Of a DNA stretch of 38,251 bases, positions 7,391 through 30,884 are shown one piece after another. Origin of the DNA: a virus; the IMG/VR virus record IMGVR_UViG_3300021142_001776, positions 1 to 38,251 of that record. One strand, given 5' to 3'. Under the pieces are notes generated by a model. That model saw nothing but the letters and a program-made list of their open reading frames with translations. It was not told where the DNA came from and made no database searches. Both the position numbers and the translations under genes were made by a program. Each line of letters opens with the position of its first letter. Positions within the stretch are counted from its first letter, which is position 1.

Positions 7391-7398
7391 GTATAATA

Positions 7399-7746
7399 TC
7401 ACCCATAAGTTTTAATATAATCTCTACATCTATCAACTTCCGCATCTATTCTAGCCCAACGCCACTCGTCTGAAAGAAAAGGCGGTCCATATTTTTGAGA
7501 TTCTTCAATTGCTATTCTAATTCGTTCTTCTTCCTTTGCTCTCTTAATGGAATATTCAGCATATTCTTCAGCAGTTGGTGTCCTTAAATGTTTATTAACT
7601 GCATTAATTAATTCAGCTGGCAGTTTATTTTGATCTAATTTATATTCGCTGAAATGCGATATTTGTTTAACATCCAAGCTATTGGTTAGCGGTTTATCGC
7701 CAACCAATAGATCAAGAATAGCAAATAATTCTTCATTGTTGCACAT
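7399..7746 (-). CDS. Hypothetical protein (115 aa)
   Basis: Not recognised. The ATG at 7746 overlaps the stop region of nrdA and is preferred to a TTG three codons earlier. The sequence is acidic and helical (TPTAEEYAEYSIKRAKEEERIR) with a Trp-rich end (SDEWRWARIDAEVDRCRDYIK). It sits between nrdA and the isomerase fusion within the same operon. Confidence 0.5.
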   Translation of the reverse strand: MCNNEELFAILDLLVGDKPLTNSLDVKQISHFSEYKLDQNKLPAELINAVNKHLRTPTAEEYAEYSIKRAKEEERIRIAIEESQKYGPPFLSDEWRWARIDAEVDRCRDYIKTYG

Positions 7747-15571: not shown

Positions 15572-16393
15572 TTATAGTCCAGGGAAATATGTTCCGCCAG
15601 AATTTGCATTAGTAACATTAGGAGAACTTAAAGCAACTAAAGTTTCGCTCTGAATTCTTCCTAATCTACCACCAGGAATAACAGTAACAGTTAAAGTTGT
15701 ATTATTTGCTCCAGAGATGGTTGCTGTAGGAATAGCGTTATATGATGCACCGTTAGAAGTTAATGTTGCGGTAACAACGTTTCCATAAGCAGTAATGTAA
15801 CCATTAGCAGCATAAGCATTAGGTGAACCAGTTGGTGCGCTAAAAGTAATATAAGCATTAGAATAAGTTAAGGTTGAACTAACGTTTCCTAAAGCGATAT
15901 CATAAACATATCCTCTTCCTTGCATTACGCGATTCCATCCAGTATGCGCTACTGGGTTATCGAATGTTGTGCCATTACCAAAAGTAGCGTTAGCAATTCT
16001 ACCACTGTCTACAAGATAAGTATTAGCGTTATAATAAACTTCTACTGGCTTTGACGCAGGATAAGCAATTGCTGTATCAAATTCAAATGTGTCGCCAATA
16101 TTAACATTAGCAGTAACATTAGTTGATAATACTACAGAAGTAGCATTAACAGATACAACAGTTACGTTACCTAAAAAGAAGCCAGGAACTGTACTATTTA
16201 AATAAAGATTGTTTCCACTGACATATTGTCCAGTAGTGATTCCTGAAGTATTGGCAATGAAAAGAGTATTTGCACTTGTTGAATTATAAATGGTAGGAGC
16301 ATTTACTGTGAATTGATTTACGTCTCTTGCTCTACGTTCCATCGGGAACTTAGGAGTAGAGATCTGATTGTCGGTATTTCCCCATGCTGGCAT
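15572..16393 (-). CDS. T4-like virion structural protein
   Basis: 273 residues, rich in Thr, Asn, Ser and Val, predicted beta. It opens MPAWGNTDNQ and near the end has AHTGWNRV and GGRLGRIQSETLVAL. These are the marks I recall for a T4-like cyanophage structural family: WGNTDN at the start and HxGWVRRxxGTGGRAGRVQYExLVA near the end. Middle domains look like repeated beta units (SGITTGQYVSG, VTVVSVNATSVVLSTNV). It has an AGGA site and a TATAAATA late promoter upstream. The location in the virion is not known to me. The many Asn/Thr/Ser make it a conceivable target of the glycosyltransferases nearby, which is only a hypothesis. Confidence 0.7.
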   Translation of the reverse strand: MPAWGNTDNQISTPKFPMERRARDVNQFTVNAPTIYNSTSANTLFIANTSGITTGQYVSGNNLYLNSTVPGFFLGNVTVVSVNATSVVLSTNVTANVNIGDTFEFDTAIAYPASKPVEVYYNANTYLVDSGRIANATFGNGTTFDNPVAHTGWNRVMQGRGYVYDIALGNVSSTLTYSNAYITFSAPTGSPNAYAANGYITAYGNVVTATLTSNGASYNAIPTATISGANNTTLTVTVIPGGRLGRIQSETLVALSSPNVTNANSGGTYFPGL

Positions 16394-16434
16394 GTTCGTT
16401 TCCTATAGTTAAATTGTTGAAGAATTTATAATAT

Positions 16435-16442
16435 TATTTATA
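16435..16442 (-). promoter_or_regulatory. T4-type late promoter (TATAAATA)
   Basis: Minus strand TATAAATA at 16442-16435, 42 bases before the ATG of the structural gene, in the only sizeable gap of this region. Confidence 0.65.
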
Positions 16443-16453
16443 AAAAATTAAAA

Positions 16454-16945
16454 TTATACATTAAACAGTAACTTCAATTGTTTTATGGTGTTCTCTGGAT
16501 TTTTATGAAGTATTGCTATTCCTCCATTCTTTTCCCATTCGGAGCAATTTAAATCATAATCATCAATTAATACATTAGGATGATTGTTAGTTTTTGCAAA
16601 CAATTGTTTTTCATCTCTTAACACGCAATAAAAATTATAATTTGGAATGTCGCAATTTTTTTGTATCCATTCCCATTTTTCTTTTTTTGCTCTTGAATCC
16701 CATATTGTATTGGCTGTTAATATTTTAGGATTCATTTTTGAAACTGTTTCCCACAATTGATCAAATCCTTCCATTTTTGGTAAATTGGACCAAAAATTTG
16801 GGGTTTCTAATACTTTATCTTTTAAAGTAGGATTGAGTAATGGTCCTTGTTTGTTCATTTGAAATGTCTTATCTAGTTTTTTTAAACCAGCATCCAAATC
16901 AACAAGAACCATATCCATATCAACAAATAAAGAACAATTAATCAT
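16454..16945 (-). CDS. HAD-family 5'(3')-deoxyribonucleotidase-like phosphatase
   Basis: 163 residues. HAD motif I is FVDMDMVLVDLD (nucleophile Asp near residue 9), motif II is the Thr in ILTANTIW, and the C-terminal NVLIDDYDLNCSEWEKNGGIAILHK is motif IV with the Asp pair. The DMD-x-VL and IDDY-x-x-N-x-x-x-W-x-x-x-GG pattern is typical of the NT5C nucleotidase group found in phages. It may remove phosphate from deoxynucleotides. Overlap with the upstream gene is four bases. Confidence 0.75.
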   Translation of the reverse strand: MINCSLFVDMDMVLVDLDAGLKKLDKTFQMNKQGPLLNPTLKDKVLETPNFWSNLPKMEGFDQLWETVSKMNPKILTANTIWDSRAKKEKWEWIQKNCDIPNYNFYCVLRDEKQLFAKTNNHPNVLIDDYDLNCSEWEKNGGIAILHKNPENTIKQLKLLFNV

Positions 16946-17769
16946 TTTTTTTCCTTTTCGGCTTTATTTGAAGGTTTCTTAATTTGCTCTTTTTTAATCT
17001 CTTTATCTTTATCAGACTTTCTAATAACTTTCATATTAGGATTTATCTGTACAGTATTTGTTTGATTTTCGCCAGTTAAAGTTTTTGTAATTTCAAATTC
17101 TTTTTCACATTGTTTCTCATCTTCTGGTTTTATTTCTTTCATGTGATTCAATTTAGGAATAGCTTTCTTTTTAAATTGATCAGCTTCATTGAAAGTATTG
17201 AACTCTTCATAAGTAGCAGCTTTACCAGTATATTCTTTTCTTTTATGAAGTTCTCTTTTGGTTATAGATCCAACAACTTTAGTTTGTCCGGTAGGAGTAA
17301 CTTGGGTTTTTCTAAATGTAAGAACGTCTGGTTTTCTTGCTTTAAATCCTTTTGGTCCAAGACTTTTATATAATGGTGCAGTCTTTAGTGCAGAATATCC
17401 TTTATTAATCAATCCTGCGTAATATTGCTGTCTCGTTACGTGTTTAGGATTTAAATGTTTATATTTTTTACTGGGTTCATATTCTTTAGGAGGATGGGGA
17501 GTATAATCTTCATCAACAGATTCATTATATCTAATATTGTTTAATATAGGATTAGTTTTTTTAAAAGTATATTTGATACTATTAAGTTTACGAAATTCTT
17601 TATATGCTTGGCTATCTTTTATCCTATTCAATTGTTCTGTTGATAATTTGGACCAATCCATACCAATTGATGTAATATATTTCCTGAGCGGCCCCATTCT
17701 TTCTTCAAAAATTTCTTCTACTTGAGCTTCGCTGTAATATTTGCGTAATAATTTGTTTTCTAATGACAT
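16942..17769 (-). CDS. Hypothetical basic protein (275 aa)
   Basis: No family recognised. The N-terminal third (RKYYSEAQVEEIFEERMGPL, then RKYITSIGMDWSKL) is helical. The middle is Lys/Tyr-rich and likely extended (PKEYEPSKKYKHLNPKHV, YKSLGPKGFKARKPD). The C-terminus is almost all Lys, Glu and Asn (KPSNKAEKEKK) and probably disordered. It shares the Lys-rich disordered style and a GPKGF/GPTF-like element with the next upstream P-loop protein, suggesting related evolution or a joint role. Confidence 0.5.
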   Translation of the reverse strand: MSLENKLLRKYYSEAQVEEIFEERMGPLRKYITSIGMDWSKLSTEQLNRIKDSQAYKEFRKLNSIKYTFKKTNPILNNIRYNESVDEDYTPHPPKEYEPSKKYKHLNPKHVTRQQYYAGLINKGYSALKTAPLYKSLGPKGFKARKPDVLTFRKTQVTPTGQTKVVGSITKRELHKRKEYTGKAATYEEFNTFNEADQFKKKAIPKLNHMKEIKPEDEKQCEKEFEITKTLTGENQTNTVQINPNMKVIRKSDKDKEIKKEQIKKPSNKAEKEKK

Positions 17770-17772
17770 TTT

Positions 17773-18819
17773 TTAACCCTTAAAAAATATTTTCTTTATT
17801 TTGACATACGTCGATTCTTTTTTGGTTTCTTTATCAGTTTCAAAATTCTTTTTTCTGTTTTTATTTTTTTCTTTTGAAACTTGATAACCAAATAAAGGTT
17901 TATCATTTGATTGATTAACGTTTGGACTATTCACGCCGCCAAATAAGCCAGTATCGGCATCATTTGGAGAATCAACAGCTTCATCCAGAAACTGATCCAA
18001 ATTATCATATTCTTCAAACGCTTTATTAGTTGCAAAGGTTTGTATAAGTGCAGTATCGCCAGTTTCTCTTGTATCAAATGTTGGACCTAAAGATTTCCTT
18101 GGTATTATTCCCTTCAAAAATTTGTCTTTAGGTATCTTCTTTTCTTTCTTTACTTCTTTATCTGTTTTGAAATTATTGTATTCAGAATCTTCTTCTACTT
18201 TTTTTAAATCGTGAGTTAGTTTTTTTCTGAAATGTAATTCTAAATAATCTTTTACTTGCTTATCTAACTGGTGAGGATTTAATTTAGAATTCTCTTTAGC
18301 TGTGGTTTCTACTTTATTCTTATATATTTGTCTATTGTTAGATGCTGCAGCAATTCCTTTTTGCCGTTTTGATTTCAGACTTGTGGCATCTAACGATTCA
18401 ACTAAAGATTTTAATTGACTTCCTGTTTCATCAGAATCCTTATCAAAACTATTATCGAAATAGAATAAATTTGTAAATTGTTCTTCAAACACATCAAGAT
18501 TCAATTTAGAATCCAATAATCTATCTATTCTAACTGATTCATTTAGATTCCTATTTGTTAATCTTTGTTTCGAAACATCATCATTAACATCAACATATAT
18601 TGCTGATATGTTATGTGATTCCTCTAAAGATTCTTTTATTGATAGGATTTGATCTTTTTTGTATGCGTTGGCTGATATTATACAATCTTCAGCCAACGAA
18701 GTGAATTGCTTTATTTGCTCTATATTATATTCTTTAAGAATATATAAAGCATTAAGTTCTTTTATGACTAAATCTTTCCCAGAACCTGGGCCACCTATAA
18801 GAAATAATATATTACTCAT
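17773..18819 (-). CDS. P-loop kinase-like domain with a long disordered tail
   Basis: 348 residues. Residues 1-130 are an adenylate-kinase-like NTPase: IGGPGSGKD (Walker A, residues 8-16), YVDVNDDVSKQRLTNRN and a lid-like RIDRL. The rest is Lys/Asp/Asn-rich and probably unstructured. It contains LGPTFDTRETGDTALIQTF and an acidic helix EEYDNLDQFLDEA, which look like short binding motifs. Homologous P-loop proteins with low-complexity tails occur in T4-like marine phages next to structural genes. The substrate is unknown. A GATAAATA late-like element and the terminator of the sugar operon lie upstream. Confidence 0.65.
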   Translation of the reverse strand: MSNILFLIGGPGSGKDLVIKELNALYILKEYNIEQIKQFTSLAEDCIISANAYKKDQILSIKESLEESHNISAIYVDVNDDVSKQRLTNRNLNESVRIDRLLDSKLNLDVFEEQFTNLFYFDNSFDKDSDETGSQLKSLVESLDATSLKSKRQKGIAAASNNRQIYKNKVETTAKENSKLNPHQLDKQVKDYLELHFRKKLTHDLKKVEEDSEYNNFKTDKEVKKEKKIPKDKFLKGIIPRKSLGPTFDTRETGDTALIQTFATNKAFEEYDNLDQFLDEAVDSPNDADTGLFGGVNSPNVNQSNDKPLFGYQVSKEKNKNRKKNFETDKETKKESTYVKIKKIFFKG

Positions 18820-18861: not shown

Positions 18862-19656
18862 TTAATTATTCTTGATATTGATAAGTTCCGAATTTATAAA
18901 GATTTTTCCTCCTTTTGCCTTAACTCCTTGGCAAAAAGAAATAATATCTGATTCTTCAAAATTATTTTCTACATTGAACCCTCTATATCTACAACCTTTA
19001 ATTGTTTGTGATTTATAGATAGAGAATCCTCCATGAGCAGCATCAACTTCAATTAACCCATAATCTTTAGGGATTTTAATAAATCTTGATTGTACAAATA
19101 TATTCTTTGCATCCTCTAAAGACATATATGAAGGTTTTCTGTATACCTCATACCAACAATCATAATCTAACCAACCTTCTTTTCGTAATGTCCAAAGATC
19201 ATAATATGTATTTTGGTTAGCAGTCATAGCATCCCAAGAATCAATATCATACTTGAAGCAACTCAGTACTCCATCAAGATCCATCTCTTGTGCCATAACA
19301 TCATCTACGCACATTTGTATATAAAAATCATGAGAATCTAGTAATCCTTTATCTTCGCAAATTTGAATTGCTGCATTTCTTGCAGTAGCAATCCTAATTG
19401 TTCTGGACATAATTCTAGGTTCTAATCTACCCAAACTTGTAACATATACGTTTTTATTTTTCTTAGCATACTCTTCTAAAATTTCATAGCTATTATCTGA
19501 AGAATCGCTTTCGACAAAAACACAAGAATATGATTTGAATAAACTACCAATACGTTCAATATTCTTAAATACGTCTCTCAAATAAGGAGAGCAATTACGA
19601 ACAGGGCCAACAAATACTACAGAATATTTTTTTGTTATATCTTTCAAGTTATGCAT
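18862..19656 (-). CDS. GT-A-fold glycosyltransferase
   Basis: 264 residues, last gene of the sugar operon. VVFVGPVRNCSPYL at residues about 13-26 is followed by VFVESDSSDNSYEIL, the nucleotide-binding strand with Asp/Ser pattern. RIATARNAAI and MCVDDVMAQEMD, a DxD-like metal motif, come next. The overall form resembles CMT1/GT69-like or GT2-like transferases that act on sugar-nucleotide donors. Donor and acceptor are unknown. It overlaps the upstream ColD-like gene by eight bases. Confidence 0.7.
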   Translation of the reverse strand: MHNLKDITKKYSVVFVGPVRNCSPYLRDVFKNIERIGSLFKSYSCVFVESDSSDNSYEILEEYAKKNKNVYVTSLGRLEPRIMSRTIRIATARNAAIQICEDKGLLDSHDFYIQMCVDDVMAQEMDLDGVLSCFKYDIDSWDAMTANQNTYYDLWTLRKEGWLDYDCWYEVYRKPSYMSLEDAKNIFVQSRFIKIPKDYGLIEVDAAHGGFSIYKSQTIKGCRYRGFNVENNFEESDIISFCQGVKAKGGKIFINSELINIKNN

Positions 19657-20824
19657 AATCGTCCAAAATAGTGCTTAATAATTCTAAATGCTTTTTGCCT
19701 ACGAATTGACTGTTTCCAATATACAATCCGAAATCATGAATAATATCAGCATTAGTTAATTGTTTTTTAGTATCAATTTTATAATACTTCAAGAAAGGAT
19801 GGCGTAATAAATTACCAGAAACAATAGGTCTGTATTCTATACCATGTTCTGTAAATGCTTTCTGTAACTTCATCTTAACAGCTTTACTACTACAGATAAA
19901 CGGTAAACAAAAACTACTGCAAGTATCAGAATATTCCATAGGGAAAAATCTATTTGCATGATCTAATAGAATATCACAAAACTCTTTGTAATTCTCATTT
20001 CTTATTTTAATGGAATCGTTCAACTTATTTAACTGTGATAATCCTAGTACAGCATTCAGATCAGTATTTCTAAAATTATACCCATCAGTAATGAATAAGA
20101 ATTGTTTATCAATGTCTGGATACTTTTCAGCATACCTATTAAACATTAATGATTCTCTAGCCATACCATGACTTCGCTTCATCTTCATGAGATCATACAA
20201 TTCAAAATTGTTAGTGGAAACGAATCCTCCTTCAACCGAAGTTAAATGATGCCCGAAGTATGTAGAAAACGTAGAACCTATGGAACTATTATCAGAGCCA
20301 ACCTTTCCACCATCAGCAAGTTTACAACCGTGAGATTCACAAACATCATCCATTATGATTGCTTTTGGGAATAGTTCTTGTAGCGTTCCATTAATTCTGG
20401 TTTTTGACGAAAATCCTAATAAGTGAGTAACAAATATCAATTTGATATCTTTATGTTTTACAGCAAGTTTCTTCAACTCACTTTCATCAAAACTAAAATC
20501 AACGATATTAATATCACAGAAAACTGGTTGCAATCCTAACTGAATAATAGGAGCAACATTAGTCACCCAAGTACAAGCTGGTAATAATACCTTATCACCG
20601 TCTTTTAATCCATAATATTCTTTAACAGCTGCAACAAGAAGGAAATTAGCAGTGCTACCAGATGAAACGAAAAGAGAATGATTACAACCTAACCATTCAC
20701 TCCAAGCCTTCTCAAGTTCTTTTACTTTAGGGCCATTAGTGAACTGATTAGTAGTTAATGCAAACTTAGCTAATTTGAGTCTATCTCCAAAAGAGATAGC
20801 GTCTTCCATTAAGTTCCATTTCAT
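19649..20824 (-). CDS. ColD-like GDP-4-keto-6-deoxymannose 3-dehydratase (PLP-fold, Lys to His)
   Basis: DegT/DnrJ/EryC1 fold, 391 residues from the ATG at 20824 (TAATG overlap with the synthase gene). The PLP-binding stretch reads STYFGHHLTSVEGG, with His192 where aminotransferases carry the Schiff-base lysine. This substitution marks ColD-type dehydratases, which use PMP and glutamate to remove the 3-OH of GDP-4-keto-6-deoxymannose. Other ColD-like blocks are SSGSTANFLL, PACTWVTNVAPI, DVCESHG and MKRSHGMARES. It lacks the cysteine set of RfbH, as does ColD. GDP-mannose 4,6-dehydratase (23267-24289) would provide the substrate. An aminotransferase (perosamine synthetase) is unlikely without the lysine. 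Confidence 0.78.
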   Translation of the reverse strand: MKWNLMEDAISFGDRLKLAKFALTTNQFTNGPKVKELEKAWSEWLGCNHSLFVSSGSTANFLLVAAVKEYYGLKDGDKVLLPACTWVTNVAPIIQLGLQPVFCDINIVDFSFDESELKKLAVKHKDIKLIFVTHLLGFSSKTRINGTLQELFPKAIIMDDVCESHGCKLADGGKVGSDNSSIGSTFSTYFGHHLTSVEGGFVSTNNFELYDLMKMKRSHGMARESLMFNRYAEKYPDIDKQFLFITDGYNFRNTDLNAVLGLSQLNKLNDSIKIRNENYKEFCDILLDHANRFFPMEYSDTCSSFCLPFICSSKAVKMKLQKAFTEHGIEYRPIVSGNLLRHPFLKYYKIDTKKQLTNADIIHDFGLYIGNSQFVGKKHLELLSTILDDYA

Positions 20825-21768
20825 TATTTGCAACTCTCTCTATTGTTTAGAAACCAATCAATAGTGATTTTCAACCCTTCGTCCAATTCATATTTTGGAC
20901 GCCATCCAAGGTCATATAACTTTTCATTACATACTTTTCTTCTTGGAGTTCCGTTTGGTTTATCCTTATCCCAGATAATTTCTCCTTTAAAATCAACGAT
21001 TTGCTTTAACTTTTCAGCTAAATCGAACATAGTGATTTCATTATCAATACCTACATTAATGATTTCTTCTGAATCGTATGTATTCATTAAGAAGATACAA
21101 GCATCTGCTAAATCGTCTGCAAAAAGGAATTCTCTTGTTGGAGTTCCATCGCCCCAACAGGTAATAGAATTGTCTCCGTTTTCTTTAGCAGTAACGAACT
21201 TATTGATTAATCCAGGAATAACGTGGCCGTTTTCAACGTTGAATCTATCATTTATACCATATAGATTAGTAGGCATTAAACTAATACAATTAAATCCATA
21301 TTGTTGTTTATATTTCTGACACATCGTCAAACCAGCAATCTTTGCAATAGCGTATGCATTATTGGTTTGTTCCAATGGACCAGTCATCAAATATTCTTCT
21401 TTGATTGGTTGTGGCGTAATCTTAGGATAGATACATGCGCTGCCTAAAAACAGTAACTTCTTACAACCTTGTTTATGAGCATATTTAATTACGTTTGTTT
21501 GGATTTCAAGATTCTCAACAATAAAATCAGCTGGATATGTTTTGTTATAATTAATCCCACCAACCTTTGCTGCAGCTAGGAAAACGTAATCAGGATGTTC
21601 TTTGAAGAAAAACCATTCAACAGCTTCTTGATCAGTTAAATCCAATTCCTCTCTTGATTTTGTAATAATATTTGTATAACCTTGTTTTTTCAATTCTCTT
21701 ACAATAGCTGAACCAACTAATCCATTATGTCCGGCAACATAAATCTTATCATTTTTTTCCATAATCAT
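20824..21768 (-). CDS. fcl: GDP-L-fucose synthase (or GDP-L-colitose synthase)
   Basis: 314-residue SDR epimerase-reductase. GHNGLVGSAIV binds NADPH; LGSACIYPK holds the catalytic Ser and Cys; NAYAIAKIAG the Tyr-Lys pair; NGHVIPGL the His base. PTNLYG and TPTREFLFADDLA are typical of Fcl. It would convert GDP-4-keto-6-deoxymannose to GDP-L-fucose. ColC, which makes GDP-colitose from the 3-deoxy intermediate, is a homologue. Adjacency to the ColD-like gene keeps that option open, but motif similarity favours Fcl. The exact start is either the ATG at 21768 or the one at 21762. Confidence 0.88.
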   Translation of the reverse strand: MIMEKNDKIYVAGHNGLVGSAIVRELKKQGYTNIITKSREELDLTDQEAVEWFFFKEHPDYVFLAAAKVGGINYNKTYPADFIVENLEIQTNVIKYAHKQGCKKLLFLGSACIYPKITPQPIKEEYLMTGPLEQTNNAYAIAKIAGLTMCQKYKQQYGFNCISLMPTNLYGINDRFNVENGHVIPGLINKFVTAKENGDNSITCWGDGTPTREFLFADDLADACIFLMNTYDSEEIINVGIDNEITMFDLAEKLKQIVDFKGEIIWDKDKPNGTPRRKVCNEKLYDLGWRPKYELDEGLKITIDWFLNNRESCK

Positions 21769-22583
21769 TATCCAATAAAATATTTTAGATGTTTATTCGC
21801 GATATATTTGCGATTTCTTTCGTATATATATCCAACTCTATCGTTATATGTTGAAGGATTATCTGAACGCATAGTTCCCCAATTTACGTCACTCTTGAAT
21901 TTCATAGCATAGACTCCATTAATATATCCAGCCATTTTCATTCTTATACTGAAGTCATGACAATCATATCCGCAAGGACGTAAATTTTCATCGAAAAAAC
22001 CACATTCTTCGAATCGTCTCCATTGAGTGCAAGTTGGACTTCTGATAGCAATCTCGGATTCTACAAATTCGCCATGATTTACAGTTTTATGGAATTTCCA
22101 ACTTAATTGATTCCAATGCCCGAATTCAGATTCTATGTAATCATCTTCTTTGATTTCATCATTCATTATATGTACAGAAACCCCAAGTCTCATAGAAATA
22201 TAACCTAAATCATCTCTAGAATTAAATAATTCTACGAACTTCTTATCTATATCAGTTTCTTGTAAAATAACATCGTCCTGAACCATGAATACTAAATCAT
22301 CAAGAGATGGGGAAAGATTATCTCTAATAAAAGTTAGTCCCATGTTTAAACATTCAATTTCATGAACGTCATTTGCTTTTAAGATATGAAAGTATTCTGG
22401 TAATATACATTTATCCTTAACCCCATACACCTTATCTTCTGTACTATCCACACAACCATCTAATATACAAATAATCGTTGGTGGCAAATTCTCTCTTGAA
22501 TGAGAATCTAAAATACCATAAAGAACATTTTCAATCAAATTTTCTTTATTATGTACTGGTACTATATAATATGCCTTACTCAT
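21768..22583 (-). CDS. Family 2-type glycosyltransferase
   Basis: 271 residues, GT-A fold. YYIVPVHNKENLIENVL is the N-terminal nucleotide-binding strand, IICILDGCVDST follows, and FMVQDDVILQE supplies the acidic metal motif. A GYDCHDFSIRMKMAGY segment resembles the acceptor/base region (ED-like). There is no membrane segment, so it is cytoplasmic. Donor unknown. It overlaps the preceding glycosyltransferase by eight bases and abuts fcl, so they are co-translated. Confidence 0.8.
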   Translation of the reverse strand: MSKAYYIVPVHNKENLIENVLYGILDSHSRENLPPTIICILDGCVDSTEDKVYGVKDKCILPEYFHILKANDVHEIECLNMGLTFIRDNLSPSLDDLVFMVQDDVILQETDIDKKFVELFNSRDDLGYISMRLGVSVHIMNDEIKEDDYIESEFGHWNQLSWKFHKTVNHGEFVESEIAIRSPTCTQWRRFEECGFFDENLRPCGYDCHDFSIRMKMAGYINGVYAMKFKSDVNWGTMRSDNPSTYNDRVGYIYERNRKYIANKHLKYFIG

Positions 22584-23274
22584 CCATCACTCCTTCATCG
22601 AACTTATATTCATCAGCAACCCATTTAGGATCAAATCTTTTCATTGCCGCCAAGGAAGCAGCATATAATGGCATATCGTTTTCGTCATATCCATTACCAC
22701 AGAAAGAATATTCATTCTTCAATTTACTTCTAGTATCTTTAAACCACCCTTCTTCGTTCATACTATGAATCATCATACTATTTTTGATTACCGGATAGAT
22801 ATAATCTCTCAAGAAGAATTGATCACTTAGATAAAACTTATTAGTCTTAGCATATTCAATCATTAATTCTTCAAGTTGGTTACCAAAACAACCTTTATAA
22901 GCGAACGCGCACCCAATAATAGGAAACTCAAAATGAGCATCATGGTCCCTGAATACGTGAAAAACTTGATCAGATTCTATCCATTCGTGTATAGCTGCCG
23001 CTTCTCTAATTGTAATTCTACTATCGGAATCCCGAACCATTACTATATTATTTGGGTCTTCGAACATAGGAAGGAAACGCCAAAACATACCATACATATC
23101 AGTATCTGCTTTGACTATATCAACCCCATAACCTGTAAAATTATTTGGTTTATCGGTGTAAATCCTTACTCTCCAATTAGGATAATACTTTTCAGCCAAT
23201 TGTATTTGGCGTTTGGCTCCGACGATGTATCTGGGGTTATCTCCCCAGACACTCATAGAAATAATTTTATTCAT
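22576..23274 (-). CDS. GT-A-fold glycosyltransferase (capsular type)
   Basis: 232 residues. [20 protein letters not shown] at the N-terminus, [13 protein letters not shown], then MVRDSDSR (DxD metal motif near residue 82) and a [23 protein letters not shown] region. These are typical of a transferase family found in capsule and phage sugar clusters. No membrane segment. It overlaps gmd upstream by eight bases. The sugar moved is unknown. Confidence 0.68.
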
Positions 23275-24289
23275 TATTATTACCTAATACAGACTTACAC
23301 ATTTCATAAACCAAAGTTTCAAACGTATACTTTGGTTCCCATCCAAGCAGCGTTTTAGCCTTTGTTGGATCACCAAGGAGAGTAGCAACTTCTGTAGGTC
23401 TAAAGTATTTTGGATCTACAGTAACAACTACTTTACCAGTATTAGTATCAATACCAACTTCATCAAGACCTTCTCCTTCCCAACGAATATTCATACCAAA
23501 ATAAGGAGCGCAAGATTCAACGAATTGTCTAACCGAATATTGCTCTCCTGTGGCAACAACGTAATCATCTGGAGTATCTTGTTGTAGCATCAGATACATC
23601 GCTTCAACATAATCTTTAGCGTGTCCCCAATCGCGAAGAGCATCAAGATTACCTAATGATAGAACATCAGCCTTCTTGTTTAATATATCATTCAATCCTA
23701 AAACGATCTTTTGAGTTACGAAAGTTTCGCCTCTACGTGGACTTTCATGATTAAATAGAATTCCGTTACAAGCAAATACGTTATATGCTTCTCTATAATT
23801 CTTTAGAATCCAGAACCCGTAAAGTTTAGCAACTCCATATGGACTTCTAGGATAGAACGGTGTAGTTTCTCTTTGAGGAATTTCCTGTACCAAACCATAA
23901 AGTTCGGAAGTGGACGCTTGATAAAACTTGATATGATTTTCCATACCAAGTAACTTAATAGATTCAAGAATACGTAAAGTACCTAATGCATCCACATTGC
24001 CAGTATATTCTGGAATTTCAAACGATACCTTTACGTGGGATTGTGCTGCTAGATTATAAATCTCATCAGGCTTAATTGATTGAATCAATGCAGTGACGTT
24101 TAGTGAATCAGTAACGTCACCATAATGCAACTTAAAATTAGGATCAGAGTAGATATGGTCAACTCTTGAAGTATTATAAGAAGAACTCCTTCGTTTTACT
24201 CCATGTACCTCGTATCCTTTCTCTAATAGTAGTTCAGCAAGATACGATCCATCTTGCCCAGTCACACCAAAAATTAACGCTTTTTTCAT
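23267..24289 (-). CDS. gmd: GDP-mannose 4,6-dehydratase
   Basis: 340 residues, the usual length. [20 protein letters not shown] is the NADP-binding loop; [24 protein letters not shown] (Thr/Glu pair), [12 protein letters not shown] (Tyr-Lys), [17 protein letters not shown] and [20 protein letters not shown] are diagnostic. It converts GDP-mannose to GDP-4-keto-6-deoxymannose, the branch point for both Fcl (fucose) and the ColD-like enzyme (3,6-dideoxy sugar). AAGGTGA lies before the ATG. GDP-mannose supply would come from the host or from the phage phosphomannomutase and isomerase genes. Confidence 0.95.
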
Positions 24290-24300
24290 ATTATTTCACC

Positions 24301-25242
24301 TTACCAAATAAACTTTTCTTTATTATATTGTACTATATATTTTAATTCTTCATCGAAATCAACTTTTGGTTTCCAACCAAGACTTCTTAACTTAGAATCA
24401 TCTATGGAATATCTTACGTCTTGTCCGGGTCTTGAATAGTCAAAATCAACGTATGGAGTGATATCGTCTTTTCCATTATATAACTTAATTAGCTTCTTTA
24501 AAACATTGATATTTTTGTCTTCGTAATTCCCGCCGATATTATAAATTTCATTTACAACGCCAGATTCAATTATCGTGAGTACAGCCCTAGCAGTATCTCC
24601 AGCATGTAACCAAGTTCTGCTTGGTTCCCCACCTTCATGTACAGGAATCTTTCTCCCAAGTTTTAAGTATTTACAAGCTTTGGGAATTAATTTTTCAGCG
24701 TACTGCCCTTTACCATAATTATTAGATGGTCTAACAATAATATACGGAACTCCGAAAGTCCTATTCCACGCAGTAATAAGCATATCAGCGGAAGCTTTAG
24801 TTGCAGAATAAGGGTTTGACGGTTTTAATAGATCAGTTTCTTTATGGGCTCCATCTACAATATCCCCATAAACTTCATCTGTACTGAAATGAAGCAGAAC
24901 TGGCATTTTAAACTTGTGTTTATTCTTAATTAATTCAAGAAGTCTATGAACACCATTAACGTTACTACTCAGAAACTCTGAAGAACTTACAATCGAATTG
25001 TCTACATGAGTTTCTGCTGCGGTATTAATAATATAATCGCAATCGTACAAATAATCAAGATCATTAATATCAGATTTGATGAATTTAAATGTTTTAAACG
25101 TTTTAAATCCCTCCAAAACTTCTTCATCTGCCGCATACGTTATTTTATCTACGCCTATAACATACCAACCCATATTTAAACAAGCGGTAGTAACATAAGA
25201 TCCTATGAATCCTAAACATCCAGTAACATAAACAACTTTCAT
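24301..25242 (-). CDS. RmlB-like NDP-hexose 4,6-dehydratase
   Basis: 313-residue extended SDR. YVTGCLGFIGSYV (NAD loop), AAETHVDNSI, STDEVYGD (Thr-Asp-Glu of dehydratases), KPSNPYSATKAS (Tyr-Lys), RPSNNYGKGQ and EPSRTWLHAGDTARA match dTDP-glucose 4,6-dehydratase; RmlB is about 360 residues. It could act on dTDP- or CDP-glucose; the RfbH-like partner upstream would prefer a CDP-4-keto-6-deoxyglucose. No RmlA or RfbF-type glucose-1-phosphate nucleotidyltransferase is in the window, so that substrate must come from the host or from elsewhere in the genome. Confidence 0.85.
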   Translation of the reverse strand: MKVVYVTGCLGFIGSYVTTACLNMGWYVIGVDKITYAADEEVLEGFKTFKTFKFIKSDINDLDYLYDCDYIINTAAETHVDNSIVSSSEFLSSNVNGVHRLLELIKNKHKFKMPVLLHFSTDEVYGDIVDGAHKETDLLKPSNPYSATKASADMLITAWNRTFGVPYIIVRPSNNYGKGQYAEKLIPKACKYLKLGRKIPVHEGGEPSRTWLHAGDTARAVLTIIESGVVNEIYNIGGNYEDKNINVLKKLIKLYNGKDDITPYVDFDYSRPGQDVRYSIDDSKLRSLGWKPKVDFDEELKYIVQYNKEKFIW

Positions 25243-26021
25243 ATTTTATATTTCCTTAATTCATCATTAATTCCAACTAATGGCAAATTCAATTCACTCA
25301 ATCTTTCACCAGATCCCGTATAATTTTTATTACTCTTTGTTGAATTTATCTTCTTATTTAATTTATTATATTTGTATATAGTATAGATATAATCACTCAA
25401 TCTATATTTGTCTTTATATACTAAATTCACATCTTTATACTTTGGCGTATTTTCACAGAAGTATTTAACAACTGTTACTAGATCTTTCTCCGAGAAATAA
25501 TCAAAATACCTATCAACCAACGCAAAATCATCATCGAATATATGATTGAACAATCTGTTTTTATCTTTATGGGATAATAAACCGAACAATCTAAGATTAT
25601 ATACAGAATTCGTTTTTTCCACGGATCTGGCTATTATATTTTTACTTATTCCATAATGATCATATGGAAAACTACAACAAATATCAGATTCTTTAGCATT
25701 GTCGATAGATGTCCTCCTATCAAATTCTGCTCCGGAACCAAAACATATCATTTTACCATAATAAGGTTTAGCATCAAGTAAATTATGAAATATAGATATA
25801 TTTTCGTTAAAAATATCATAATTAAACATGTGCATAGTAGTGTCTGTATTAGATACACAATTTATTATAACATCTGGATTATGTTTTGCAATAAAAGAAA
25901 TAACGTTTGCATTATCTAATAAATTACATTCATTTCTGGTTACTGGTATAACGTCTATATTTTCTTTTAAAATACTTCCGATTATACCAGTACTACCGAA
26001 TAGTAATATCTTATTTGCCAT
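25239..26021 (-). CDS. NAD(P)-dependent SDR sugar epimerase/reductase
   Basis: 260 residues, divergent extended SDR. LLFGSTGIIGSILKENI gives the nucleotide loop, DVIINCVSNTD the strand that follows, CFGSGAEFDRR the Ser region and YDHYGISKNI the Tyr-x-x-x-Lys catalytic pair. Such short members accompany RfbH and thiamine-enzyme genes in bacterial surface-sugar clusters and would reduce a 4-keto group, by analogy with YerF of yersiniose synthesis; that is inference. It overlaps the thiamine beta gene by 11 bases. Confidence 0.65.
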   Translation of the reverse strand: MANKILLFGSTGIIGSILKENIDVIPVTRNECNLLDNANVISFIAKHNPDVIINCVSNTDTTMHMFNYDIFNENISIFHNLLDAKPYYGKMICFGSGAEFDRRTSIDNAKESDICCSFPYDHYGISKNIIARSVEKTNSVYNLRLFGLLSHKDKNRLFNHIFDDDFALVDRYFDYFSEKDLVTVVKYFCENTPKYKDVNLVYKDKYRLSDYIYTIYKYNKLNKKINSTKSNKNYTGSGERLSELNLPLVGINDELRKYKI

Positions 26022-26544
26022 AATCCGGAAACTCTACTAAAATAGTGCTTCCTTTTCTACGATACGCATCCACATAACTGTCAACGATCTTAGTAGGATC
26101 GGTTAATTCAACTACAGTAACGTAATTTAGCATACTTCTAAAAGCATCTGAGAAATTACCTTTATGTTGATCTTGTGGATCAACAGGAATTTCAGAACCA
26201 ACAGCAACTCTAATAATGACTTTCGGATCATATCCGCCATCACTCATCTTATGCAACTTATCTAAGTGATTAACTAATTGATCAGCAGCGCATAGAAGGA
26301 AATTCCATCTAGGGAAACAAGACACAGGAACAAATCCATTTAGAGCCATTCCTATACTAAATCCCATTTGGAAATTTTCGGCTACAGGAAATTCCATTCT
26401 CTTAGATTTTGGTAAATGATCTAATGTATCATATAAACCAGTACCTTCATATAGTACAGATTGTCCTAAGAATATTGTATCTGGCTGTTCAGATAACCAA
26501 GACATTGCGTCTCTCAATTCTTGTTTATAATATAACTGACTCAT
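26011..26544 (-). CDS. Thiamine-diphosphate enzyme, beta (E1-beta/transketolase Pyr-like) subunit
   Basis: 177 residues. The central EFPVAENFQMGFSIGMALNG matches the E1-beta pyrimidine domain, with Glu56 as the cofactor-activating glutamate. FPRWNFLLCAADQLVNHLDK and a VGSEIPVDPQDQHKGNFSDAF region (E1-beta His loop) follow. The usual C-terminal transketolase domain of E1-beta (about 325 residues) is missing, so it is a minimal Pyr domain. Its partner is the alpha-type gene at 27148-27789. Its AAGGTGA site lies in the last codons of the intervening endonuclease gene. Confidence 0.75.
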   Translation of the reverse strand: MSQLYYKQELRDAMSWLSEQPDTIFLGQSVLYEGTGLYDTLDHLPKSKRMEFPVAENFQMGFSIGMALNGFVPVSCFPRWNFLLCAADQLVNHLDKLHKMSDGGYDPKVIIRVAVGSEIPVDPQDQHKGNFSDAFRSMLNYVTVVELTDPTKIVDSYVDAYRRKGSTILVEFPDYGK

Positions 26545-27194
26545 TCATCACCTTTAGAAGTTAATCCTTTATTCCAACCTCTACCCTTTTTCAAGCCTTC
26601 TGTATTTTGTTTACTTTTTTGTTCTTCTGTCATTTTTATTCCTTTATTCCAAGGAGGTCTATTACCAAATGAGCCGGCATTCTTTTTACCTTTACTAATT
26701 TCACTGAGTTTTTTCTTTTGTTCTTCACTCATAGGAATACCCTTCCTTCCAGTAGGTCTTCCTTTCAACGTATTAGATCTTTTTAAATTTGATTCTACTG
26801 ATCTAAAAGATTTCTTCTTTTGTTTATACCCTTTGGTGTTTCTAAATCGTTTTTTATTAAAAAAACAAGATTTATCCAATAATAAAGGATTATCCCAATT
26901 TTCATATATCAATCTTTGCTCGAAATCATAAGCATCATCACTATTAAAAAATTCTGCTATTATGAAATAATTATATTCATCAAAATTAGGATTTATCAGT
27001 TTAGAAGAAGTTTTATATAATGGAAAATCTTCATTTGAAGGAAGTTTATTACTACGTCTATATCCTATATAAAACTCATTAGTTTCTCTATGGATACATA
27101 CATAAACATAAGGTACGGCCTTAGTCGAAGAATAATTACAAAATCCGTCAAAAAGTAACACGAACACCTGCCCCTGCATGGGGATATTTTTCAT
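26541..27194 (-). CDS. GIY-YIG homing endonuclease with NUMOD3 motifs
   Basis: 217 residues. VPYVYVCIH and EFYIGYRRS are the two GIY-YIG strands, and FEQRLIYENW supplies the helix with the catalytic Glu. The C-terminal half is basic and has tandem NUMOD3-like DNA-binding motifs: KGIPMSEEQKKKLSEISKGK and KGIKMTEEQKSKQNTEGLKKG. This layout is that of phage Seg/freestanding homing endonucleases. The first in-frame ATG at 27194 overlaps the alpha-gene end by 47 bases. The start may instead be downstream, for instance the GTG that follows GGGGCAGG. It sits between two genes of one enzyme. Confidence 0.85.
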   Translation of the reverse strand: MKNIPMQGQVFVLLFDGFCNYSSTKAVPYVYVCIHRETNEFYIGYRRSNKLPSNEDFPLYKTSSKLINPNFDEYNYFIIAEFFNSDDAYDFEQRLIYENWDNPLLLDKSCFFNKKRFRNTKGYKQKKKSFRSVESNLKRSNTLKGRPTGRKGIPMSEEQKKKLSEISKGKKNAGSFGNRPPWNKGIKMTEEQKSKQNTEGLKKGRGWNKGLTSKGDE

Positions 27195-27789
27195 TTTTGT
27201 AAGTATAACAAATTAAATGGGCGCCATCAAAATCAAAACTATCCTCAAGTCCTCGTTGATAATACATGGGAATATACCAAGGAAACAATCTATTCCAGAC
27301 TTCGTTGGTGGGTGACGTAACGCTTAGACCATTATTCTCAACGACAAACGTTATTGGTAAACGATTATTTACCGCATATTTGTACGCTTCATGGAACGCT
27401 CCGGTTTCCGCACTCATATCGCCCAACCAACACCAAACCCTAGAGTCTTGTCTGTTATGTTTTATTGCTTGTGCTATTCCCACAGCTATACTTGGAATGC
27501 CACCCACAATACTTGAGCATACGATCTTATATTCAGGTAGATTCATAACCATACTTTTACCTTCTACGATCTTCTGCATTAGAAGATCTTCAGGAACTCC
27601 TTTAAGGAGACATTGGTAATGATTTCGCCAAGTACAACAAACCCAATCTTTTTCAATATTGATTCTTTCGAAAACTCTGAGCATCTTAGCTTCATTACCA
27701 TGATACAAATGTACAGGTGCTCTTATCTCAGCATTGTTGAACTTTTCCGCTACTTTATTTTCAAATTCAATTAATTGTTCTTTATTCAT
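27148..27789 (-). CDS. Thiamine-diphosphate enzyme, alpha (E1-alpha/transketolase PP-like) subunit
   Basis: 213 residues. LGDMSAETGAFHEAYKYAVN starts the ThDP motif (GD at 123-124, variant Met for Gly) and ends with VVENNG (NN at 152-153), the spacing used for Mg and diphosphate binding. NHYQCLLKGVPEDLL and SIVGGIPSIAVGIAQAIK fit E1-alpha. The C-terminus KYPHAGAGVRVTF looks natural for this short family. With the beta gene it would form a two-carbon transferring enzyme. AviB1/B2 (avilamycin) and YerE (yersiniose) are precedents for ThDP enzymes attaching two-carbon branches to nucleotide sugars. Confidence 0.75.
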   Translation of the reverse strand: MNKEQLIEFENKVAEKFNNAEIRAPVHLYHGNEAKMLRVFERINIEKDWVCCTWRNHYQCLLKGVPEDLLMQKIVEGKSMVMNLPEYKIVCSSIVGGIPSIAVGIAQAIKHNRQDSRVWCWLGDMSAETGAFHEAYKYAVNNRLPITFVVENNGLSVTSPTNEVWNRLFPWYIPMYYQRGLEDSFDFDGAHLICYTYKNEKYPHAGAGVRVTF

Positions 27790-29110
27790 ATTGCTTCATA
27801 AAATAGTCAACTTGTTCACTTATATATGCAATTTGATCCTGCGTTATTACTGGACTTGTTCCATGGAAAAATGTATTCGTAGTAGTAAATGTAGCATTTG
27901 GATAATTGTTCACAGCTTCATCAGTACTCATCAAGTGAGAATACGCTGGCTGTAAAATGATATTTCCAGCAAAATATGGTCTTGTTTGTATCTTCTTGTC
28001 TTCCAAGAAATTAACGAATTCATTCCTAGTGAATGGAGCGTCTTTTCTTACAGTCAAAGGAAACGCAAACCAACTTGGATCGCTTAAATTCGTCGCTCTT
28101 GGTAGATGAAAGTATTCTTCATATTTACTATAAGCATCAAACAACAATTTATAATTACGAACACGTAATTCTTTAATTTCATCAAGTTTTTCTAGCTGGC
28201 GAAGACCCATAGAACCTTGTAGTTCAATTGGCTTTAAGTTATACCCTATCTCATCGTAAACATATTTGTGATCAAAAGTTTCGTCAGGTAAAGACGGAAT
28301 CCAATTACTGAATCTATTCTTACAAGTTCCGCACTTCAACGTATTTGCTTTAGGACCAACACAATAACACCCTCTTCCCCATTCTCTAAAGCTTCTAAGG
28401 ATGATTTCTTGTTCTTTAGTAGAACAAGATACAAAGCCACCTTCTCCCATCGTAATATGGTGAGCAGGATAGAAACTACACGAAGCCATTTCACCAAAAC
28501 TTCCCAACTGTTGTCCTGCGTAAGTTGATCCCAAAGCATCGCAACAATCTTCAAGGAGTATTAGATCATACCTAGATACAAGTTCCATCAACCTAATCAT
28601 ATTAGGAGGATTTCCTAATACATGAGCAAATGTAATTACCTTAATGTCTGGATTATTTTCTAACGTTTGTTCTACTTTATCCAGATCAAGATTAAGAGTA
28701 TCAAGTTCAACATCAACAAAAACTGGTTCAAATCCCATTTGAATAATGGGATTTAACGTTGTGGGAAATCCCGCAATTGGAGTGAGAACTTTTGTTCCTT
28801 TTGGAAGGTTATGTCCACGTTTACTCGTAAGACTAGCCATCATCAATAGATTAGAACTAGAACCGCTATTAGTCAAAACACCATAATCTTTTCCAAAGTA
28901 TTTTGGGAATTTGTTTTCGAATTTTAGGCAATCATTACCCATCACTAGCCATCCCTTTAATAGCGATTCTACTGCAGAAACGAATTCAGTATGATCAAAA
29001 TAAGGTCCAGCATAATTAATATAATCTTGACCAGGAACCCAAACTTTATTTTGTTGTTTAGTTTTAATATATTCTTCAACTAAAGTTAGGATTTCATTCA
29101 AACTATTCAT
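27782..29110 (-). CDS. rfbH: RfbH-like CDP-4-keto-6-deoxyglucose 3-dehydratase (E1)
   Basis: 442 residues from the ATG at 29110 (TAATG overlap, GGAG nine bases upstream). DegT fold with SFYPAHHITMGEGG, where His217 replaces the PLP lysine exactly as in RfbH/DdhC. The Fe-S cysteines fit E1: Cys190, then 57 residues to Cys248, one residue to Cys250, and Cys260 after nine (seven in E1, C-X57-C-X-C-X7-C). LPDETFDHKYVYDEIGYNLKP is another RfbH block. It dehydrates CDP-4-keto-6-deoxyglucose to a 3-deoxy product using PMP. Its partner reductase (RfbI/DdhD) is not in the window and would be host-supplied or encoded elsewhere. It overlaps the ThDP alpha gene by eight bases. Confidence 0.88.
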   Translation of the reverse strand: MNSLNEILTLVEEYIKTKQQNKVWVPGQDYINYAGPYFDHTEFVSAVESLLKGWLVMGNDCLKFENKFPKYFGKDYGVLTNSGSSSNLLMMASLTSKRGHNLPKGTKVLTPIAGFPTTLNPIIQMGFEPVFVDVELDTLNLDLDKVEQTLENNPDIKVITFAHVLGNPPNMIRLMELVSRYDLILLEDCCDALGSTYAGQQLGSFGEMASCSFYPAHHITMGEGGFVSCSTKEQEIILRSFREWGRGCYCVGPKANTLKCGTCKNRFSNWIPSLPDETFDHKYVYDEIGYNLKPIELQGSMGLRQLEKLDEIKELRVRNYKLLFDAYSKYEEYFHLPRATNLSDPSWFAFPLTVRKDAPFTRNEFVNFLEDKKIQTRPYFAGNIILQPAYSHLMSTDEAVNNYPNATFTTTNTFFHGTSPVITQDQIAYISEQVDYFMKQYE

Positions 29111-30027
29111 TATTGTCCACTCCAATATGCATATGATGTTTCAAGATGACGTATTTCGTTTATTTTCTGAGGTTCATCCAACCGTAAAGGATAGATCCAA
29201 TGCTCATTAAACATATTTGAACCATTTGGATAATACGCATTATAATTTATTTCCCAACGCTTTCCTTTTATACCGAAGAATAATTGAATTATTCCTCCTG
29301 TTTGTATACCTACTTTTCCTTTTTGTTTTGCATGTTCAACATAAAATGGCGATTGCGTTGTCACTCCTGTGATTAGCACATCATAATCGTATTGATCTAT
29401 AATGCTCTTCGTATGTTCTACAACTTCTTCAAAGTTATTACAATTAGGATATTGCCTATCGTCTACTAAAGGATGGAATGGAGTTTTAATACAACCAACC
29501 AATTCAAACGGTACTATATTATCTCGTTCTTTTCCCCAAATATTATCAATGTTATTCCATTGATGTAATATACTATTTGCATGAGATGATATAACTAATA
29601 CTTTTTTTCCTTTTAGGTATTTTGTCCAAGGATCATTCAATTCACCGAAAACGGATCGTCCAGTTAATGCACCTGGATCTACAATTTCCATATCAAAGTA
29701 GATAGTTTTATCACCAAACATATCCAAAAAATCTTTGTCATTTCTAGTTTGATGAGATATATCCACAAATCCTAGTATATCGCAAGATTTCATAATTTCA
29801 ACCGTTTTTGGATATACTGTTGAAAAAGCATATTCTAATGAAGAAGGATATACTCCAGCTTCAATCATCGTATTTTCATTAAAGAATTCGTATACTGGTC
29901 TTTGTCCTTTATGTAAACAATTTGTTACATATGTGGCAGTATTATCAATACGCAACATAGAGAAGGATTCATTATTTTTTAATTTATCAGAAACTAATTG
30001 GTTAATTTCAAAAAAGTTTTTTATCAT
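29110..30027 (-). CDS. Putative GT-D-like glycosyltransferase
   Basis: 305 residues. The N-terminus SFSMLRIDNTATYV resembles the FSxIRIGDGE start of DUF1792/GT-D transferases. VLVISSHANSILHQW, YDVLITGVTTQSPFYVEHAK and GIIQLFFGIKGKRW are also seen in such proteins of capsule and phage clusters, as far as I recall. The Asp-x-x motif is weak because DNTA replaces DGE. No membrane segment. Located between the RfbH-like and GT10 genes. The glycosyltransferase call is moderate; a different sugar-related function is possible. Confidence 0.45.
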   Translation of the reverse strand: MIKNFFEINQLVSDKLKNNESFSMLRIDNTATYVTNCLHKGQRPVYEFFNENTMIEAGVYPSSLEYAFSTVYPKTVEIMKSCDILGFVDISHQTRNDKDFLDMFGDKTIYFDMEIVDPGALTGRSVFGELNDPWTKYLKGKKVLVISSHANSILHQWNNIDNIWGKERDNIVPFELVGCIKTPFHPLVDDRQYPNCNNFEEVVEHTKSIIDQYDYDVLITGVTTQSPFYVEHAKQKGKVGIQTGGIIQLFFGIKGKRWEINYNAYYPNGSNMFNEHWIYPLRLDEPQKINEIRHLETSYAYWSGQ

Positions 30028-30884
30028 AATTTTCCTTTGAATATAACGCTGAAAAACGCATAGATAAAATCAAGATTAGGCATAGTATGAAATAATGGTT
30101 CTTTTGCTCTTAGAACAAAGTTATCTTTATTATTAAGATGATACATCTGATCTATTAATCCACTATCATCAGCAAAATCAGCATAATTAATGGCACACAT
30201 AGGATTAAAATCTTTTGTGTATGTTGAATGTCCATAATAAATCGGAATACAACCAGCAACTTTAGCTTGTAATAGCTTCTCAGTCACATAACCATCAGTT
30301 ATAGAATTTTCAAAACAAATATTGAACTTATATTTTTCAAGAAGTTTTACTTTATCACCATCATAGGGATTGCCGAATACTCTGCCGTAACAATGTACTT
30401 TTCCAAAAGTAGAATCAATAAGATTAGCAACAGTCAATCTGTTTTGAACTGGATTACCTATCATAATTGAACAAAATTCATTTCTATTCCAAATCTCTTC
30501 TGGATCCCATTTTTTATTCAATTGCTCTAATGATATTTGTGCTGCGTGTTCGAAATTGGGTTCATTCCACCAATTAACATACAAATACCAATGTGGTAAA
30601 CGAAGATTGCGACCGTTATATGTATCAAAATCAAAACTTAATGAATATTCACCGAAAGTCAAATCAGGACGTTCATTTTCTCCAGTATAGAAAATACGAA
30701 TAGCTTTCTTGTTGATTATATTACGTCTTTCACTACCAAAACTAGACGCAACAATAATATCTGCGTCTGTTTGATCGTTTGAAAAAATTAAGTCTTTATT
30801 TTGAAAATATTCCTTGAATAAAAGATTAAACCAATTAGATTGGACATCAAATCCAGGCCAGAAATCAAGATAACAAATCTTCAA
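30024..30884 (-). CDS. GT10 fucosyltransferase (alpha-1,3-type)
   Basis: 286 residues. YTGENERPDLTFGEYSLSFD and RLPHWYLY precede the GT10 signature at about 185-218: YKFNICFENS, DGYVTEKLLQA and AGCIPIYYG. These bind GDP-fucose in bacterial and animal alpha-1,3/4-fucosyltransferases; Helicobacter enzymes are slightly longer. It starts at an unusual TTG (30884) backed by a strong GAGGGGG site and overlapping the upstream stop. It has no membrane anchor, so it would act in the cytoplasm. Fucose or its 3-deoxy form colitose could both be donors, since GT10 enzymes tolerate a missing 3-OH in known cases. Confidence 0.9.
   Translation of the reverse strand: MKICYLDFWPGFDVQSNWFNLLFKEYFQNKDLIFSNDQTDADIIVASSFGSERRNIINKKAIRIFYTGENERPDLTFGEYSLSFDFDTYNGRNLRLPHWYLYVNWWNEPNFEHAAQISLEQLNKKWDPEEIWNRNEFCSIMIGNPVQNRLTVANLIDSTFGKVHCYGRVFGNPYDGDKVKLLEKYKFNICFENSITDGYVTEKLLQAKVAGCIPIYYGHSTYTKDFNPMCAINYADFADDSGLIDQMYHLNNKDNFVLRAKEPLFHTMPNLDFIYAFFSVIFKGKL

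Follow-up and report, generated by a model that had tools for sequence, protein, structure and literature searches.

The subject of this analysis is a stretch of viral DNA, the window, that makes up the whole of IMG/VR virus record IMGVR_UViG_3300021142_001776 (38,251 bases, linear and probably a fragment), and in it a set of five genes that likely form a phage pathway for a nucleotide-activated, C-branched 3,6-dideoxyhexose. In their order on the minus strand, these encode an RfbH-like 3-dehydratase, the alpha and beta subunits of a small thiamine diphosphate (ThDP) enzyme, a short-chain dehydrogenase/reductase (SDR) and an RmlB-like dehydratase. An initial annotation had read a branched dideoxy sugar pathway into the first four, which were found where it had placed them, all on the minus strand; the branching part of that idea was strengthened by a conserved module whose ThDP slot holds three enzyme types, while its CDP-sugar detail is probably wrong, the neighbor being RmlB-like with an Asp-Glu motif. 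A few O-antigens and antibiotics are known to contain C-branched dideoxy sugars. The window also carries T4-like replication genes (UvsX, a DnaB-like helicase, DNA polymerase, primase, NrdA/NrdB and an exonuclease), and its sugar-gene block spans approximately 18.8 to 32.7 kb. The pathway proposal draws on sequence, i.e., on enzyme families, catalytic residues, conserved gene order and the interchange of three ThDP superfamilies.

The strongest evidence for a branched sugar is this interchange, together with its match to the ThDP enzymes in a 2025 review (PMC12247030): the three groups listed there for keto-sugar branching, whether known or proposed, are YerE-type decarboxylases, alphaKADH2 alpha/beta pairs and split transketolases. 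Frequencies were taken from 92 classifiable phage RfbH genes gathered regardless of any thiamine genes nearby, since scans selected on alpha or transketolase are biased, and a ThDP gene was scored when it lay within 4.2 kb downstream of RfbH. By this measure 81 of the 92, a sample itself limited to those genes that best match the family of the window, had a downstream ThDP enzyme, which was YerE-like in 45, an E1-alpha/beta pair in 19 and split transketolase-like in 17. The ThDP gene lay no more than 60 nt from RfbH in 59 loci (26 YerE-like, 18 alpha/beta and 15 transketolase-like), and a first, smaller scan had found one within 4.2 kb downstream of 33 of 34 unique RfbH genes. The slot is occupied by a YerE/acetolactate-synthase-like enzyme, whole or split, in L006, L008, L009, L016 and L044, and by a split transketolase-like enzyme in L003, L026 and L029; L003, the window's nearest relative (85% in RfbH), is thus of the transketolase type. 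On a tree of 83 phage RfbH sequences the ThDP type switches 13 times or more, compared to at least 22 with shuffled labels, so the type is inherited yet has repeatedly been exchanged. Three ThDP types in the slot after RfbH are what one would predict for a ThDP enzyme whose substrate is the product of RfbH. The order RfbH, alpha, beta, SDR, RmlB-like is kept in related contigs, and since many independent phage contigs have the block, it is not due to chance. These sequence comparisons support a conserved module of dehydratase, ThDP enzyme and reductase, and the suggestion that this order fits branching chemistry has held up well.

The open reading frame (ORF) at 27782-29110 (minus strand, 442 residues) is, judged from its sequence, a true RfbH/E1-type 3-dehydratase, i.e., an enzyme for nucleoside diphosphate (NDP)-4-keto-6-deoxyhexoses that would use pyridoxamine phosphate (PMP) and a predicted [2Fe-2S] cluster. 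It aligned with 3bcx, wild-type E1 of Yersinia pseudotuberculosis, at an E value of 1.1e-103, and passed the NCBIfam RfbH equivalog NF011936 with 458.9 bits against a cut-off of 423. The His217 that had been placed at the position of the pyridoxal phosphate lysine corresponds to His220 of 3bcx, and the mutant E1 of 3bb8 has a lysine there. The cysteine pattern C190-X57-C248-X-C250 is present as claimed, and a fourth cysteine, C263, had been overlooked; neither these four cysteines nor His217 varied among 46 phage sequences or across an alignment of 17 rows with cyanophages in it. In the RfbH tree, the 83 phage sequences are monophyletic (support 0.987), and the spacing to the last cysteine is C-X-C-X12-C in 69 of the 83, versus C-X-C-X7-C in 38 matched bacterial sequences. 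This phage-specific clade with its altered spacing, along with the exchangeable ThDP slot, is the surprising part of the system.

Immediately downstream, the E1-alpha-like, ThDP-binding (PP) subunit (27148-27789, minus strand, 213 residues) overlaps RfbH by 8 nt. It matches PF00676 (2.4e-17), and the top matches of its predicted structure (pLDDT 82) are the E1-alpha subunits of pyruvate dehydrogenase (PDH) and 2-oxoacid dehydrogenases. Its ThDP motif residues G123-D124-M125, in which Met replaces the last Gly, and N153 are invariant in 17 sequences, and the protein is complete, because its relatives align across residues 1-213. The E1-beta-like pyrimidine-domain (PYR) subunit (26011-26544, minus strand, 177 residues) has Transket_pyr as its only Pfam match, at 22.4 bits and below the cut-off of 27, and further support comes from NCBIfam PDH E1 beta (8e-13) and from a family profile that matches PDB E1-beta structures. 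The catalytic-type Glu56 of beta is invariant, and the transketolase C-terminal domain of E1-beta is missing. Both genes are what the initial annotation took them for, E1-alpha-like and E1-beta-like. Like the alphaKADH2 branching pairs they comprise PDH-E1-like alpha and beta genes with a ThDP motif (its third residue being Met) and a catalytic Glu; the subunits of that family are full-length, with a transketolase C-terminal domain, and as the phage pair is short and its beta lacks this domain we call it a functional analogue of such pairs and not a member.

A home for the pair in central metabolism, i.e., as an auxiliary metabolic gene acting on pyruvate or acetoin, might be read from its best named profiles, which are indeed those of PDH E1 alpha and beta. 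The scores fall far under the equivalog cut-offs (83 of 394 bits for PDH E1, so that membership in that family is not indicated), beta at 177 residues is without a domain of full-length E1-beta, and the pair is locked into a sugar operon where it is interchanged with YerE-like and transketolase-like enzymes; we consider this explanation highly improbable. Without the C-terminal domain beta is not an ordinary PDH subunit, and the docking of alpha and beta into a PDH complex is unlikely, an argument that draws on general knowledge of how E1 binds E2.

The gene order had been given as RfbH, alpha, beta, SDR; this order takes one correction, since an ORF for a free-standing homing endonuclease, which had been overlooked, lies between alpha and beta (26541-27194, minus strand) and has no part in the pathway. 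It matches phrog_314, a homing endonuclease family, at 2.4e-13, and GIY-YIG-like and NUMOD3-like segments were recognized by eye. At one end the ORF shares sequence with the 3' end of alpha, read in a different frame, and at the other its stop codon runs into the start of beta (ATGA). In relatives, alpha and beta are directly adjacent and the endonuclease is absent; the insertion separates the two genes and breaks neither. Truncation of alpha by the endonuclease was considered and rejected, as relatives likewise end at residue 213, and there was no sign of an intron between alpha and beta, both ORFs being complete and the endonuclease reading as free-standing.

The SDR that follows the pair (25239-26021, minus strand), overlapping beta by 11 nt, had been correctly recognized: it matches PF01370 (3e-10), and is of the extended type with both the GxxGxxG (GSTGIIG) and the YxxxK (YGISK) motifs. 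Its predicted structure (pLDDT 92) has the fold of GDP-fucose synthase and RmlD reductases, making it a putative side-chain or ring reductase, and on this model a role as side-chain reductase is plausible. Co-evolution of the SDR with the ThDP type was examined and rejected: the residual difference in identity came to 0.7 points (permutation p of 0.04, uncorrected for relatedness), and close pairs show none.

The fifth gene (24301-25242, minus strand; 4-nt overlap with the SDR) encodes an RmlB-like NDP-glucose 4,6-dehydratase for the proposed first step on dTDP-glucose, and it bears on which nucleotide carries the sugar. Its STDEVYG motif holds an Asp-Glu dyad, and the protein scored 305 bits with TIGR01181 versus 79 bits with TIGR02622, with dTDP-glucose 4,6-dehydratases as closest PDB entries, i.e., an RmlB match over RfbG. 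An Asp-Lys dyad marks CDP-glucose 4,6-dehydratases, and Asp-Glu those for dTDP-glucose (and UDP-GlcNAc) (PMC8987622). The dyad was Asp-Glu in 78 of 79 phage cases and Asp-Lys in all 26 bacterial RfbH loci in which it was found. In bacteria, RfbH usually follows RfbF- and RfbG-like genes, as family models confirmed for L355; in the window and its relatives, the records of which are fragmentary, no RfbF and no RfbG-type enzyme beside RfbH was seen. Among 18 large related phage contigs a nucleoside triphosphate (NTP) transferase gene occurred in one and a Fer2-domain reductase in none, so RfbF and RfbI, both of which the initial annotation had suggested looking for along with RfbG, are probably not phage-encoded. 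This genomic context bears on the substrate and not on membership in the RfbH/E1 family. Taken together, the Asp-Glu neighbor, the TIGR01181 and PDB matches and the two counts from the 18 contigs favor dTDP-glucose and a host reductase, which, given the pathway, we regard as fairly probable. The same branching pathway could run on CDP-sugars made with a host RfbF, as characterized RfbH/E1 and YerE act on CDP-sugars and bacterial RfbH loci carry RfbF and RfbG. This is unlikely in light of the adjacent RmlB-like dehydratase, the separate phage RfbH clade with its X12 spacing, and the lack of any RfbG-type neighbor seen, and on these grounds the CDP framing of the initial annotation is not supported. 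As the CDP alternative shares the branching chemistry with the dTDP version, the confidences in the two overlap and do not sum to one.

In the favored scheme, the RmlB-like enzyme would turn host-supplied NDP-glucose, most likely dTDP-glucose, into the 4-keto-6-deoxy sugar, from which RfbH, with PMP and its [2Fe-2S] cluster, would remove the 3-hydroxyl, drawing its electrons from a ferredoxin or flavodoxin reductase of the host in the manner of SpnQ, which uses ferredoxin or flavodoxin pairs in place of E3 (PMC8987622). The minimal alpha/beta enzyme would then decarboxylate a 2-oxo acid, probably pyruvate, and transfer a two-carbon acyl unit to the C4 ketone, a step modeled on YerE and on AviB1/B2-type pairs as they are thought to act. 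The SDR would reduce the new side-chain ketone, and neighboring glycosyltransferases may finally place the sugar on a host-surface or virion glycan.

The chemistry is thus predicted to be known chemistry, with the phage version a variant of it. The yersiniose A pathway of Yersinia pseudotuberculosis (E1/RfbH, E3, YerE and a side-chain reductase) has the same 4,6-dehydration, RfbH 3-deoxygenation, two-carbon ThDP transfer and reduction; the window differs in having an E1-alpha/beta pair in place of the acetolactate-synthase-like YerE, whose like is present in its sister phages, and an RmlB-like dehydratase in place of RfbG, with no RfbF or E3 seen. AviB1/AviB2, Pau11/Pau12 and KbDH-alpha/beta, alphaKADH2 enzymes of actinomycetes, are likewise two-gene PDH-E1-like ThDP enzymes, and add an acetyl unit to a keto-sugar, with pyruvate used where tested. 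The phage pair is much smaller (213 and 177 residues compared to 325 and 345 for Pau11/Pau12), does not have the beta C-terminal domain and adjoins an RfbH-type 3-dehydratase. SpnQ of spinosyn biosynthesis, an Fe-S, His-type 3-dehydratase that acts on TDP-sugars with ferredoxin or flavodoxin reductases, is by its description a model for phage RfbH, although its pathway has no ThDP branching.

A second sugar route in the window, with a 3-dehydratase of its own, had been overlooked, and it raises the question of which dehydratase the alpha/beta pair serves. Genes for a GDP-mannose 4,6-dehydratase (gmd, 23267-24289), a GDP-L-fucose-synthase (Fcl)/ColC-like SDR (20824-21768) and a DegT-fold, ColD-like 3-dehydratase (19649-20833; closest PDB entry ColD, 1.1e-49; His type, with no Fe-S loop) lie on the minus strand and, with a GT10 alpha-1,3-fucosyltransferase-like glycosyltransferase elsewhere in the block (30024-30884, minus strand), point to GDP-colitose or GDP-fucose chemistry. 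The minimal alpha/beta pair also occurs in bacteria (Nitrospira, Betaproteobacteria, Verrucomicrobia, SAR116 and others), where 44 of the 49 loci that have full flanks carry a ColD-like, His-type 3-dehydratase beside it. This would suit a pair serving the GDP-mannose-derived route that lies a few kb downstream in the window, and not RfbH. In the phages, however, alpha is directly downstream of RfbH (within 60 nt in 18 of 19), a ColD-like gene also occurs in phages with the YerE-like or transketolase-like type (L003, L006), and none was detected near alpha/beta in others, e.g., L058 and L065. Service to the GDP route is therefore decidedly unlikely, and we retain the assignment of the pair to the RfbH pathway.

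The bacterial pairs are of interest in themselves. In loci L142-L221 the same small ThDP pair (alpha 43-51% identity) stands beside a His-type 3-dehydratase, as in the window, except that this dehydratase is without the Fe-S loop; the residue is His in all 70 aligned ColD-like neighbors, and the loop is missing. This widespread operon also encodes a GHMP kinase and an NTP transferase, joined at times by GmhA and a B12 radical SAM protein; it looks like a modified GDP-heptose pathway. Bacterial RfbH was not seen beside the minimal pair near 80 bacterial alpha loci, the rfbH matches there being weaker ColD-like enzymes, and in forty bacterial RfbH regions (398 + 296 genomes searched) the ThDP neighbors were YerE-like or transketolase-like, with no alpha/beta. 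In three bacterial RfbH loci (L367, L374 and L391), split transketolase-like genes lie downstream, so that this pairing is not confined to phages or Streptomyces. Three large phage contigs (L395, L396 and L398) encode DegT-fold proteins of approximately 384 residues with His at the lysine position ('SFYASHVITAGG') and no Fe-S cysteines, whose genes adjoin alpha/beta or transketolase-like genes. With such neighbors in both bacteria and these phage contigs, ThDP enzymes pair with 3-dehydratases repeatedly. In cyanophages S-SM2 and P-TIM68 the alpha and beta domains are fused (L078:8977-10185 and L079:9049-10194; phrog_34187), giving PP and PYR domains in a single chain of approximately 400 residues; unlike the window, these loci have no RfbH, and the neighbors are a Zn alcohol dehydrogenase, a sugar kinase, a nucleotidyltransferase and a phosphoheptose isomerase.

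Several observations weigh against a branched-sugar pathway as drawn here. Its substrates, donor and product, and its use to the phage, are inferred from the genes. In alpha, the ThDP motif reads GDM and not GDG; the SDR is fast-evolving, with no convincing co-variation with ThDP type, and in some of its relatives the lysine of YxxxK is missing; the RmlB-like protein falls short of the TIGR01181 equivalog cut-off (365 bits), so that UDP-glucose is also possible as substrate; and in bacteria the alpha/beta pair goes with ColD-like enzymes and GDP-heptose-like genes, not RfbH. Since the window is a 38-kb fragment, a missing RfbF or RfbI by itself proves nothing. Eleven of the 92 phage RfbH genes had no ThDP gene within 4.2 kb downstream, and some such loci, e.g., L453, resemble plain dideoxysugar routes. 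The RfbH loci of L453 and L475, which have an SDR or dehydratase directly downstream and no ThDP gene, would fit a simpler scheme in which RfbH, the RmlB-like enzyme and the SDR make an unbranched 3,6-dideoxyhexose while alpha/beta makes another compound for the same glycan. That ThDP genes abut RfbH in most loci, and that three unrelated types occupy one slot, make this quite unlikely and leave the branched sugar as the preferred product.

Elsewhere in the window, at 6557-7402 (minus strand), a CTP_transf_like nucleotidyltransferase domain is fused to a cupin of the mannose-6-phosphate-isomerase type, possibly a phage-encoded sugar activation enzyme. Several proteins in or near the sugar block (29110-30027, 22576-23274 and 15572-18819) had no Pfam matches, the first of which, u305, is kept immediately upstream of RfbH in many relatives.

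Searches of an open-access library gave no paper on a phage version of this pathway, which does not prove novelty. Sugar-branching transketolase candidates have so far all come from Streptomycetes, with none tested in vitro (PMC12247030), and the phage loci supply split transketolase candidates from outside Streptomyces, as well as candidates for very small ThDP carboligases of approximately 390 residues in two chains. The system also allows a direct in vitro test, of RfbH enzymes on dTDP-sugars with generic reductases. More broadly, we see about even chances that a modular pathway is common to T4-like and other large phages, with a phage-specific clade of RfbH, fed by a dTDP-glucose dehydratase, handing a 4-keto-3,6-dideoxy sugar on to a ThDP slot whose enzyme can be swapped. 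The YerE-like, minimal E1-alpha/beta or split transketolase enzymes would there add different branches, which would yield a diversified family of C-branched sugars, some without a known bacterial counterpart. A pathway of this kind in phages, with three exchangeable ThDP enzymes, would mean that some phages build rare sugars themselves, perhaps altering the receptors of their hosts or decorating their virions.

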